DNA from: Chloroflexota bacterium
GTDB taxonomy: Bacteria; Chloroflexota; Limnocylindria; Limnocylindrales; CSP1-4
Assembly (NCBI GenBank): GCA_017881905.1
Contig: JADGQI010000006.1
Coordinates: forward strand, 1 to 42,335
Length of the DNA: 42,335 nucleotides
Direction: 5' to 3'
Every line of letters starts with the position of its first letter. The first letter of the stretch is position 1. Of the stretch, positions 13,886-21,079 are shown one piece after another. Under the pieces are notes generated by a model. That model was not told where the DNA came from. It saw only the letters and a program-made list of their open reading frames with translations, and did no database searches. A program made the translations under genes and the position numbers.

Positions 13886-16540
13886 ATGTCCGCCCAGGGC
13901 CGGCAGGTCGCGCGCGACACGCACGGGCAGATCCGGGGGTCGAGCCTGCTCCTCGTGGGGCGGATGATCTCGATCGGCATCAATCTGCTGGCGCAGATCG
14001 TCATCGTCCGCCACCTCTCGACGACCGGGTTCGGCGCGTTCGCCCTGGCGTACTCCATCGTCGGTCTCGCCGAGGTCGCGATCACCCTCGGGCTCCACCG
14101 CGGGGCGACCCGGTTCGTGTCGATGTACGACGAACAGGGCGCCTACCCGCGGATGCTGGGCACGATCCTGCTCAACATCGCGGTCATCGTCGGCCTGGGC
14201 GCGGTGCTCATCATCGTCGTCCACCTGGTGCCCGATGCGATCTCCGGCAGCGGCCTGGCGGATCCGATGGCGACCGGCCTCCTGCTGATCCTGATCTTCC
14301 TGGCCCCGGTCGATGCGCTCGACGACCTCCTGCTCAACCTGTTCGCCGTCTTCGCCGCGCCGCGCGCCATCTTCTTCCGCCGGTACGTGCTGGGGCCGGG
14401 GCTCCGGTTGGTCGTGGCGATCCTGCTGGTGGCCGGCAACGGCGACGCGACCGGACTGGCGATCGGCTACGTCGCGGCCAGCGTGATCGGGCTGTTGCTG
14501 TACGGCGCCCTGTTCATCCGGCTGCTCGCGGACCGGGGGATCATCCGTGAGTTCCGGCGGAGCCGGCCGGAGGTCCCGGCCCGCGAGGTGCTCGGATTCT
14601 CGATCCCGCTGCTCACCACGGACGCGGTCTGGCTCCTGCTCAACACGTTCCCGCTCGTCCTGCTGACGGCGTTCGGCGGGCTCGATGACGTCGCCGCGTT
14701 CCAGGTCGTCAAGCCGACGGCGGCCCTGAACCTGCTGGTCGCGTCAAGCTTCGCCGTGCTCTACCTACCCGTGGCGTCGCGGCTCGTCGCCCGGCACGAT
14801 GAGGCGGGCCTGACCGAGCTGTACTGGCGGACGGCGATCTGGACCGCCGTCATCACGTTCCCGATCTTCGCGGCGACCTTCGCCCTGGCGGACCCGCTGA
14901 CCGAGATCATGTTCGGTTCCCGATATGCGGCGTCCGGCACCTACCTCGCGATCATGTCGCTGGGGTATTACGTCAACGCGGCGCTCGGCTTCAACAGCAT
15001 GTCGCTCAGCGCCGCCGGCCACGTCCGGTCGGTCGTCCTGGCCAACGGCGTGTCGGCCGTGCTGAGCATCGCTCTCGGGTTCCTGCTCATCCCCCGCTTC
15101 GGAGCGCTCGGCGCGGCGGTGTCGAGCTGCCTCACGCTCCTCATCCAGAACCTGCTGCTCCAGATCGAGCTCCGCCGGAAGCTCGGGATCCCACTCCTGT
15201 ACAGGCCGGCCGTCGAGGCGTATCTCGTCGTCGGCGTCGGCGCGGCGCTGCTCCTGCTGGTCCAGTCGATCGCCGCGATCGGCTGGTGGTCGCTCGTGTT
15301 GGCCGGGTTTGCGTCGATCGTCGTCGTCGTGCTCACGCGGCGGTCGCTCAACGTGATGGAGTACTTCCCCGAAGTCCAGGTCATGGCCCTCGGTCTGCTC
15401 CGCTCCGCCGGCCGACCGGCCCGACGGCTGGTCGCCGGGATCGACGTCGTGGGGTCGATCGGCCTGCTCGAGGCGTGGCGCGGGCTCGGCGCCGATCGCC
15501 GCTGGAGCGTCCTCGGCAGCGGGCCGCGCCGACGGGTCGACGAGGGGCTCTGGACGGCCGCGGCGACGGAGCTCGGAGCGACCCTGGCATCGGTCGATCG
15601 CGATCGCTTCGCTCTGACGCTCGACGGGGCCACCGTGACGGTCCCCGACCACCTCCTGGAGATCGACGATCCGGCGGCCCTCGCGCGGGTCCACGACACG
15701 ACGGCCGTCGACGCGCTCCTGCGCGACCATGGCCTCCCGGTCCCGGACCGGGTCACCGTGCGACTCGGTCAGCTGGACCTCGCCCAGGCGTTCCTGGACC
15801 GGATCGGCGGTCCGTGCGTCGTCGGGCCGGTGGACTTGATGACCGGGTCGGCGGTGACGAGCTGCGTGACGACCCGGCCTCAGCTCGTCCGCGCGATGGT
15901 CCGGGCGGCCGGCCAGGCGCCCGAGCTCGTCATCCGGTCGCGCGGCGAGGGCGTTGTCTATCACCTGCTCTTCCTCGACGGCGTCCTGCTCGACATCCTC
16001 GAACGGCTCCCGCCACGGGTCACCGGCGACGGGCGGTCGACGATCGGACGGCTGATCGAGGCCGAGAACCGTCGCCGGATCGACGGACACGGCTCGGCCG
16101 GGCTGTGCCTGATCGAGGTCGACCTCGACTGCCTGTTCACCCTCGAACGCAGCGGACGCACCCTCCGGACGGTCCTCGAGGCCGGCCTGGTCGTGCCGGT
16201 CAAGACCGCCGTGGATCAGAACGCCCCGACCGACAACCGCACCGTCATGGACGAGGTCTCAGCGGCCCTCGTCGATGAGGCTCGCCGGGCCGCCATGCTC
16301 GTCGGCCTCCGCCTCGTCGGTGTGGACGTCGTCACCGACGACCCGACCCGGTCCCTCGCCGACAGCGGCGGCGTGATCGTCGATATCGACGGCCGGCCGG
16401 GGCTGCACGATCACGTCCAGATCGTAGATCCAACGGCCGCCCGGCCGGTCGCCGTGCCGATCGTCCGCGCCCTGTTCGCACCCCATCCCGATCCGGGCGG
16501 CGGCGACCTCGCGGTCGGCCGCGCGCTCCAACCCGGCTGA
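13886..16540 (+). CDS. Oligosaccharide flippase fused to degenerate ATP-grasp (cyanophycin synthetase-like) domain
   Basis: An 884-residue two-part protein. Residues about 15-480 form a Wzx-type flippase of the MATE/MOP superfamily, with roughly a dozen hydrophobic helices, the N-terminal GSSLLLVGRMISIGINLLAQ, and the segment FGALGAAVSSCLTLLIQNLL. Residues about 560-850 resemble the ATP-grasp core of cyanophycin synthetase: PPRVTGDGRSTIGRLIEAEN (about 709-728), the AVDQNAPTDNRTV region, and VIVDIDGRPGLHDH (about 829). Key residues look lost. The nucleotide lysine of the usual V-K-P motif is glycine (CVVGPVD), the glutamate region reads LVIRSRGEG, and the usual E-x-N-x-x-P-G is DIDGRPG. No glycosyltransferases lie nearby. 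The domain may sense or bind rather than ligate. Confidence 0.85.
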   Translation: MSAQGRQVARDTHGQIRGSSLLLVGRMISIGINLLAQIVIVRHLSTTGFGAFALAYSIVGLAEVAITLGLHRGATRFVSMYDEQGAYPRMLGTILLNIAVIVGLGAVLIIVVHLVPDAISGSGLADPMATGLLLILIFLAPVDALDDLLLNLFAVFAAPRAIFFRRYVLGPGLRLVVAILLVAGNGDATGLAIGYVAASVIGLLLYGALFIRLLADRGIIREFRRSRPEVPAREVLGFSIPLLTTDAVWLLLNTFPLVLLTAFGGLDDVAAFQVVKPTAALNLLVASSFAVLYLPVASRLVARHDEAGLTELYWRTAIWTAVITFPIFAATFALADPLTEIMFGSRYAASGTYLAIMSLGYYVNAALGFNSMSLSAAGHVRSVVLANGVSAVLSIALGFLLIPRFGALGAAVSSCLTLLIQNLLLQIELRRKLGIPLLYRPAVEAYLVVGVGAALLLLVQSIAAIGWWSLVLAGFASIVVVVLTRRSLNVMEYFPEVQVMALGLLRSAGRPARRLVAGIDVVGSIGLLEAWRGLGADRRWSVLGSGPRRRVDEGLWTAAATELGATLASVDRDRFALTLDGATVTVPDHLLEIDDPAALARVHDTTAVDALLRDHGLPVPDRVTVRLGQLDLAQAFLDRIGGPCVVGPVDLMTGSAVTSCVTTRPQLVRAMVRAAGQAPELVIRSRGEGVVYHLLFLDGVLLDILERLPPRVTGDGRSTIGRLIEAENRRRIDGHGSAGLCLIEVDLDCLFTLERSGRTLRTVLEAGLVVPVKTAVDQNAPTDNRTVMDEVSAALVDEARRAAMLVGLRLVGVDVVTDDPTRSLADSGGVIVDIDGRPGLHDHVQIVDPTAARPVAVPIVRALFAPHPDPGGGDLAVGRALQPG

Positions 16541-19893: not shown

Positions 19894-20700
19894 ATGTCAC
19901 CTGCGCTGATCACCGGCCTGCCGATCCGGAGCGTCACGGCGACGCGCTACGTGACCGCTCTGCGCGAAGGCGGCTCGCTGCCCGGTCTGGTCGAGGCCGA
20001 CGACGACGGGCTGTACGTGGTCAAGTTCCGCGCTGCCGGGCAGGGGCCCAAGGCGCTCATCGCCGAGCTCGTCGGCGGCGAGATCGGTCGCGCCCTCGGG
20101 CTACCGGTGCCGGAGATCGTCCTGGTCGGGCTCGACGCCGCGCTCGGCAAGGCCGAGCCGCACCAGGAGATCCAGGACCTGCTCGTCCGCAGCGCCGGGC
20201 TCAATCTCGGTCTCGACTTCCTGCCGGGCTCGCTGGCGTTCGACCCTGCCGCCGGGACCCCGCCCGGGATGGACCTGCCCGACCCGGACCTGGCTGCCGA
20301 CGTCGTCTGGTTCGACGCGTTCATCACGAACGTCGATCGGACCGCGAAGAACGTCAACCTGCTCGTCTGGCACGGCCGCTTGTGGCTGATCGACCACGGC
20401 GCTGCGCTGTACGTCCAGCACACCTGGCGCGATCCGGCCGAGCACGCCCGCCGTCCGTTCGAGCGGATCGCCGATCACGTCCTGCTGCCGCATGCGGCGT
20501 CGATCGTGCAGGCCGACTCCCGGCTGGCTCCGAGGATCACCGAGGATGTGCTCGGCTCGATCGTCGAGGCGATCCCGGAGGCGTGGCTGGGGTCGGACGC
20601 CGCCGGCGAACGGCGCGCCTACGTCGACTACCTGCTGACGCGGCTGGCCGCTCCCCGCGCGTTCGTCGAGGAGGCCGAACGTGCCCGCCGCCACGCGTAG
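19894..20700 (+). CDS. HipA-like kinase family protein
   Basis: A 268-residue protein with the C-terminal kinase fold of HipA toxins but without the N-terminal HipA subdomain. LYVVKFRAAGQGPKALIAEL holds the probable ATP lysine (K44). WFDAFITNVDRTAKNVNLL matches the HipA catalytic loop (D148, N153), and LWLIDHGAALY the metal-binding aspartate (D167). HipA phosphorylates glutamyl-tRNA synthetase; the target here is unknown. It overlaps the DUF3037 gene by 20 bases. This two-gene pair recurs in other bacteria as far as I recall. No HipB-like XRE gene is adjacent, which argues against a standard hipBA toxin-antitoxin. Confidence 0.85.
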   Translation: MSPALITGLPIRSVTATRYVTALREGGSLPGLVEADDDGLYVVKFRAAGQGPKALIAELVGGEIGRALGLPVPEIVLVGLDAALGKAEPHQEIQDLLVRSAGLNLGLDFLPGSLAFDPAAGTPPGMDLPDPDLAADVVWFDAFITNVDRTAKNVNLLVWHGRLWLIDHGAALYVQHTWRDPAEHARRPFERIADHVLLPHAASIVQADSRLAPRITEDVLGSIVEAIPEAWLGSDAAGERRAYVDYLLTRLAAPRAFVEEAERARRHA

Positions 20701-21079
20701 TCCGTTCGAGTATGCGATCGTCCGGGTCGTCCCGCGGGTCGAGCGGGGCGAGTCGATCAACGCCGGGATCGTCCTGCACTCGCGGCCTCGGCGCTTCCTC
20801 GCGGGGCGCGTCGAGCTCGATGTCGCACTGCTCCGAGCGCTCGCCCCGGATTGCGACCCAAGCGAGGTCTCGGCGCATCTCGAGGCGATCCCGCGCATCT
20901 GTGCCGGCGACCCCGCCGCCGGGCCGATCGCCCGACTCAGCCGGCCCGAGCGATTCCACTGGCTCGTCGCACCGAGCAGCACGGTCGTCCAGCCGTCGGA
21001 GGTCCACACCGGCCTGACCGAGGACCCGGCGTCGACCCTCGACCATCTCTTCCGGACCCTAGTCCTCGAACGCCGCTGA
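20681..21079 (+). CDS. DUF3037 family protein
   Basis: A 132-residue DUF3037 protein. The family opening reads FEYAIVRVVPRVERGESINAGI, followed by RFLAGRVELD and the C-terminal DHLFRTLVLERR. Function is unknown. The family is typically encoded next to a HipA-like kinase, as here. The start is a GTG inside the kinase gene with GAGGAGG 6 bases upstream, so the pair is translationally linked. It could be a substrate, partner or inhibitor of the kinase; the sequence does not decide. Confidence 0.85.
   Translation: MPAATRSPFEYAIVRVVPRVERGESINAGIVLHSRPRRFLAGRVELDVALLRALAPDCDPSEVSAHLEAIPRICAGDPAAGPIARLSRPERFHWLVAPSSTVVQPSEVHTGLTEDPASTLDHLFRTLVLERR

Follow-up and report, generated by a model that had tools for sequence, protein, structure and literature searches.

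Organization of the fusion gene

The window, the 42,335-nucleotide stretch of DNA that was analyzed, contains an open reading frame of 884 codons with no internal stop, in which a Wzx-type flippase is read in frame into a CphA-like ATP-grasp domain (Table 1). The GC content by codon position is of a coding type in both halves (0.68/0.44/0.95 for the flippase half and 0.81/0.50/0.90 for the C-terminal domain, hereafter the C-domain). The first-pass annotation of this DNA had described such a fusion in a single frame, and the uninterrupted frame with coding composition throughout bears this out. According to the alignment, the linker between the domains begins where unfused flippase homologues stop, at an FPE-L-R-P-ARW motif. 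In the full-length AlphaFold2 model, the ATP-grasp half is positioned with low confidence. Promoter and terminator scans returned no candidates.

Table 1. Features of the fusion gene, in window coordinates
Feature	Position	Strand	Basis
Fusion gene, 884 aa	13886..16540	+	ORF; Pfam, NCBIfam and PDB matches to both halves
Flippase domain, residues 1–~504, 14 helices (predicted)	13886..15397	+	PF01943, AlphaFold2, topology, Foldseek
Linker, residues ~505–546	15398..15523	+	C-terminus alignment of flippases; pLDDT <50 for residues 1–42 of C-domain model
Candidate pseudo-ATP-grasp domain, residues ~547–871 (pre-ATP-grasp region and CphA G-domain-like core)	15524..16498	+	TIGR02068, model, Foldseek
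T605 at β-phosphate Lys K220	15698..15700	+	Alignment; CphA residue role from PMC9427784
Degenerate phosphate loop GPVDLMTGSAV (CphA KPLDGNHGRGV): K261→G647, H267→T653, G270→A656	15824..15856	+	Alignment
Hinge Glu E300→R684; acyl-phosphate Arg R309→H693	15935..15964	+	Alignment
Metal Asp D814 (CphA D431), retained	16325..16327	+	Alignment
D-I-D, residues 833–835, replacing metal-binding E-x-N (E450→D833, N452→D835)	16382..16390	+	Alignment

The N-terminal flippase

The Pfam family Polysacc_synt (PF01943) matches residues 17–300 with an E-value of 2.2e-16 and 60.6 bits against a gathering score of 28.2. AlphaFold2 predicts a confident bundle for residues 1–510, with pLDDT values of about 90 or more for most of the flippase domain, and Foldseek returns WzxE (TMt 0.79) and MurJ as the top structural matches. 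The even loops carry 22 lysines and arginines and the odd loops 3 (22/25 on one side), which predicts that both the N and the C terminus are cytoplasmic. As modeled, the domain has 14 helices, within the 12–14 of the MOP fold, and cytoplasmic ends. The earlier assignment of this half to the Wzx-type flippases therefore holds, with a Pfam match above the cut-off and agreement of fold and topology. Because the C terminus of the flippase is predicted to lie inside, the ATP-grasp domain is probably cytoplasmic as well.

The flippase half retains 72 of 80 family-invariant positions (90%; 7 homologues), a share similar to that of each homologue. The unfused homologues from related genomes (40–50% identity) end in a terminal motif that is also present in the window protein, whose frame continues beyond it. 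Judged from sequence and model, the flippase half is apparently whole, with its native C terminus kept, and looks able to move a lipid-linked saccharide. One arginine that is invariant in the 7 homologues is a glutamine in the window (R273Q). The same stretch (positions 14702–14713) encodes K276, a lysine that among these homologues occurs only in the window, and the conserved positive charge has possibly been moved by one helix turn.

The C-terminal ATP-grasp domain

Positions 212–473 of the cyanophycin synthetase model TIGR02068 match residues 603–866 of the window protein (E 2.1e-36), and the CphA chain 7lg5 from the PDB matches the C-terminal half with an E-value of 1e-28. At 125 bits, the C-domain does not reach the TIGR02068 equivalog cut-off of 850. 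An AlphaFold2 model of the C-domain alone, built with 37 relatives, has a pLDDT of 79.5 and a pTM of 0.78. With this model, Foldseek retrieves CphA structures first (E 8.4e-22), followed by the glutathione synthetase GshF and D-Ala-D-Ala ligase (Ddl), matches that place the predicted fold in the ATP-grasp superfamily. The CphA-like framework that the first-pass annotation had recognized is thus recovered in both the TIGR02068 and the PDB matches, and the ATP-grasp fold, which it had left to structure prediction, is present in the model. Of the architecture of CphA, the window protein has a G-like domain alone, whose active site is probably lost. The possibility that the C-domain is CphA or a fragment of it was rejected, as a full CphA is found on another contig (C150) and the C-domain groups with a stand-alone protein outside CphA (see below).

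For the active site, we assign E300 of CphA as the hinge glutamate and N452 as a metal-site residue, following the general background on ATP-grasp proteins. In Trichodesmium CphA1, K220 and K261 contact the phosphates, D431 and E450 bind magnesium, H267 and R309 are located at the acyl phosphate, and R323, N394, and R458 are located at the aspartate (PMC9427784). In the alignment with CphA, 9 of these 11 positions are changed in the window protein, and R323 and D431 are kept. Besides the replacements listed in Table 1, N394 corresponds to D777 and R458 to H841. K261, E450, and N452 are invariant in 37/37 aligned relatives, and all three are altered in the window. The first-pass annotation had already read the nucleotide lysine as glycine and E-x-N as D-x-D, and both substitutions stand out against these relatives; the losses at the equivalents of K220, H267, E300, R309, N394, and R458 go beyond its list. 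Among the hallmarks of an active ATP-grasp site (phosphate lysines, glycine-rich loop, hinge Glu, and D/E-x-N), the metal aspartate D814 alone is kept. A frameshift as the cause of the lost lysine was rejected, as the other two frames near the phosphate loop contain no ATP-grasp motif.

Because of these losses, ligation of amino acids by the C-domain is very unlikely on sequence grounds, and nucleotide binding is probably weakened. The retained D814 and R323 could still belong to an enzyme with a rearranged site, in which D814 and the acidic D-x-D would bind the metal and other residues the nucleotide. However, both phosphate lysines, the glycine-rich loop, the hinge glutamate, and R309 are gone together, and the constancy of K261, E450, and N452 across all aligned relatives also makes a rearranged enzyme improbable. 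The same residues bear on the earlier suggestion that the domain senses nucleotide or peptide. With the glycine-rich loop, the hinge glutamate, and both phosphate lysines lost, nucleotide sensing becomes less likely. On the peptide side, a sensor of cyanophycin or aspartate is disfavored, because the CphA residues for aspartate and the cyanophycin end (R309, N394, and R458) are missing too.

Nearest relative of the C-domain

The closest relative of the C-domain is encoded by a stand-alone ATP-grasp gene from another family of the same class (G159, JAOUHE010000084.1). The G159 protein shares 36% identity with the window protein over residues 549–863, the pre-ATP-grasp region included, and when it is used as a query in a class-wide search, the window protein is the best match after itself. 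In the tree, the two proteins group together, apart from CphA proteins and N-acetylglutaminylglutamine synthetase (support 99/97). Whereas their ATP-grasp and pre-ATP-grasp regions are homologous, the G159 protein is unfused and keeps most catalytic residues, namely 8 of the 11 (K220, K261, E300, R309, R323, D431, E450, and N452). The G159 gene (L054:4752–7305) follows an MFS-like gene at a distance of 173 bases, and the contig ends just past it.

The end branches of the two proteins are of length 2.38 (window) and 2.53 (G159), and near-invariant non-catalytic columns are kept at 42/81 and 40/81 positions, respectively. The catalytic columns are kept at 2/10 positions in the window and at 7/10 in G159 (Fisher P 0.09 for the contrast; 10 rather than 11 columns were counted, as the hinge Glu falls just below the conservation threshold). 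These sequence comparisons suggest that the window domain is no more degraded overall than the G159 protein and that its losses lie mainly at the active site.

The main rival to a retained, non-catalytic domain is that the gene is the relic of a bifunctional ligase–flippase. A formerly active ligase would have added an amino acid to the lipid-linked sugar before flipping, following a logic like that of MprF, and the ligase half would since have become inactive, with little or no function left. A nearest relative that stands alone, looks catalytically intact, and is encoded downstream of an MFS-like transporter gene is in line with such a history, as is the occurrence of the fusion as a singleton. 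Against it, the frame, the coding composition, and the scaffold residues are kept throughout, and the end branch does not exceed that of the intact-looking G159 protein. We regard a relic as unlikely.

Genomic context and distribution

The annotated neighbors in the window are GNAT acetyltransferases, PAC2, DUF72, a WYL regulator, a Zn-peptidase, and metabolic and helicase genes, together with a lipoprotein-like ORF without a Pfam match and a HipA-like kinase with DUF3037. The HipA-like kinase is followed by DUF3037 at positions 19894–21079, a pair that is also present beside PAC2 in the related genome G015. We found no glycan gene among the annotated neighbors, in agreement with the earlier remark that no glycan cluster surrounds the gene. 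The unfused flippase homologues have glycan-type genes around them (as assessed by eye on the sequences), and such a location is a usual, not an essential, trait of Wzx proteins.

PAC2 lies upstream of the fusion gene, and the WYL and Zn-peptidase genes lie downstream. The same three genes are neighbors in the related genome G021, which lacks the fusion gene and in which PAC2 and WYL are separated by ∼0.8 kb. Because they are neighbors there as well, both flanks belong together, and this synteny disfavors a chimeric contig. An artefact, either a misassembly or a sequencing error that erased a stop between two genes, might be suspected in a draft genome of 172 contigs and 78% completeness in which the fusion is seen once. 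Yet the frame passes the native C terminus of the flippase without truncation, the flanking genes are close neighbors in G021, and the residue losses in the C-domain are independent of the joint, leaving an artefact quite improbable.

The genome encodes a second Polysacc_synt flippase that runs across two contigs, C94 and C138, which share a 127-base overlap at their ends. This copy is unfused and has glycan-type surroundings (by eye), and the flippase tree is poorly resolved as to a possible origin of the fused copy from it. Pieces of MurJ above the PF03023 cut-off occur on C161 and C105, the gene being apparently split over two contig ends. The fusion was rejected as the MurJ of this genome, as it scores 17.8–19.8 bits against a cut-off of 27.4 and genuine pieces exist elsewhere. 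A genuine CphA is encoded on C150 (1121 bits with TIGR02068) and has close to it another gene with a match to the M domain of CphA, the two together spanning C150:22150–28442. As the genome has genes of their own for MurJ, CphA, and a glycan-cluster flippase, the fusion represents an orphan extra copy.

Other flippase/ATP-grasp fusions were found neither in 177 genomes of the class nor in 400 genomes of the phylum. None appeared in viral contigs, in phages, or in a scan of genome contigs whose reach was limited to two short peptide patterns, and none in plasmids, whose matches are of the N-acetylglutaminylglutamine synthetase type where annotated. The rarity of the fusion is established within Chloroflexota only. 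In another Chloroflexota family, four tandem genes of ∼700 amino acids (L131:2892–11305, G399:C1) include at least two with a CphA-like ATP-grasp domain, resembling CphA2.

Proposed role of the fusion protein

The reading that we favor, at slightly less than even odds, is a Wzx-type flippase with a non-catalytic cytoplasmic ATP-grasp domain in a binding or regulatory role. The flippase would have acquired at its C terminus an ATP-grasp ligase domain that is now catalytically dead and itself would ligate no amino acids. Its scaffold may persist as a module for binding or scaffolding beside the flippase. What it holds there could be a partner protein or a substrate, such as a lipid-linked saccharide in amino-acylated or peptidyl form. 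The bound substrate or partner might then tune flipping, by analogy with the pseudokinase of MurJ/MviN, which recruits a regulator.

A dead but retained domain is in line with the open coding frame, the kept scaffold residues, and an end branch not longer than that of G159. On the other side, the searches found no second fused homologue that would speak for selection on the dead domain; the gene is not beside glycan or peptide genes, and R273Q alters an invariant arginine.

A more far-reaching version, which we consider rather doubtful, is that the pseudo-ligase is a dedicated regulatory or substrate-presenting module and an independent parallel to the MurJ pseudokinase, dead nucleotide-fold domains having been recruited more than once to envelope flippases. 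The control of these flippases is poorly understood. If true, a second, unrelated dead-enzyme domain would suggest a general coupling of precursor flipping to cytoplasmic signals. Judged by its residues, the window protein is also a candidate bacterial pseudo-ATP-grasp protein; our literature search for ATP-grasp pseudoenzymes returned the animal TTLL12 only.

Comparison with known systems

Wzx flippases (WzxE, PDB code 9g9n) share with the window protein the Pfam match and the predicted 14-helix fold, and the flippases in glycan clusters of related genomes are 40–50% identical to it. The window copy differs by its C-terminal ATP-grasp extension and its orphan location. With the G domain of CphA, the window protein has in common the ATP-grasp fold, ∼30% identity, and the conserved LERLPPRVTGDGRSTIGRLIEAEN stretch, whereas it lacks the N domain and the MurE-like M domain, and 9 of 11 ligand or catalytic residues are changed. 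MprF is a flippase joined to a lysyl-lipid synthase. It resembles the window protein in the idea of a single polypeptide that combines flipping with the transfer of an amino acid, but the domains are unrelated, and Pfam detects neither the LPG flippase nor the synthase domain of MprF in the window protein.

The first-pass annotation knew of no described system with this architecture. For the exact combination this stands, as our search of open-licence papers found no flippase/ATP-grasp fusion. A dead cytoplasmic domain on a flippase nevertheless has a precedent in MurJ/MviN of Mycobacterium tuberculosis. According to the passages on this protein in PMC12599244 and PMC6180346, it carries a cytoplasmic pseudokinase that does not bind ATP and magnesium (Gee et al. 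2012) and that, once phosphorylated, brings in FhaA and holds back peptidoglycan synthesis. As far as these accounts describe it, MurJ/MviN shares with the window protein the sequence of a 14-helix MOP flippase, a linker, and a cytoplasmic domain with a lost ATP site, which for the window protein is judged from residues and predicted topology. Pfam finds no kinase match in the fusion protein. The two thus differ in that MurJ/MviN, as described there, has a kinase fold on a lipid II flippase, whereas the window protein has a predicted ATP-grasp fold on a Wzx-type flippase.
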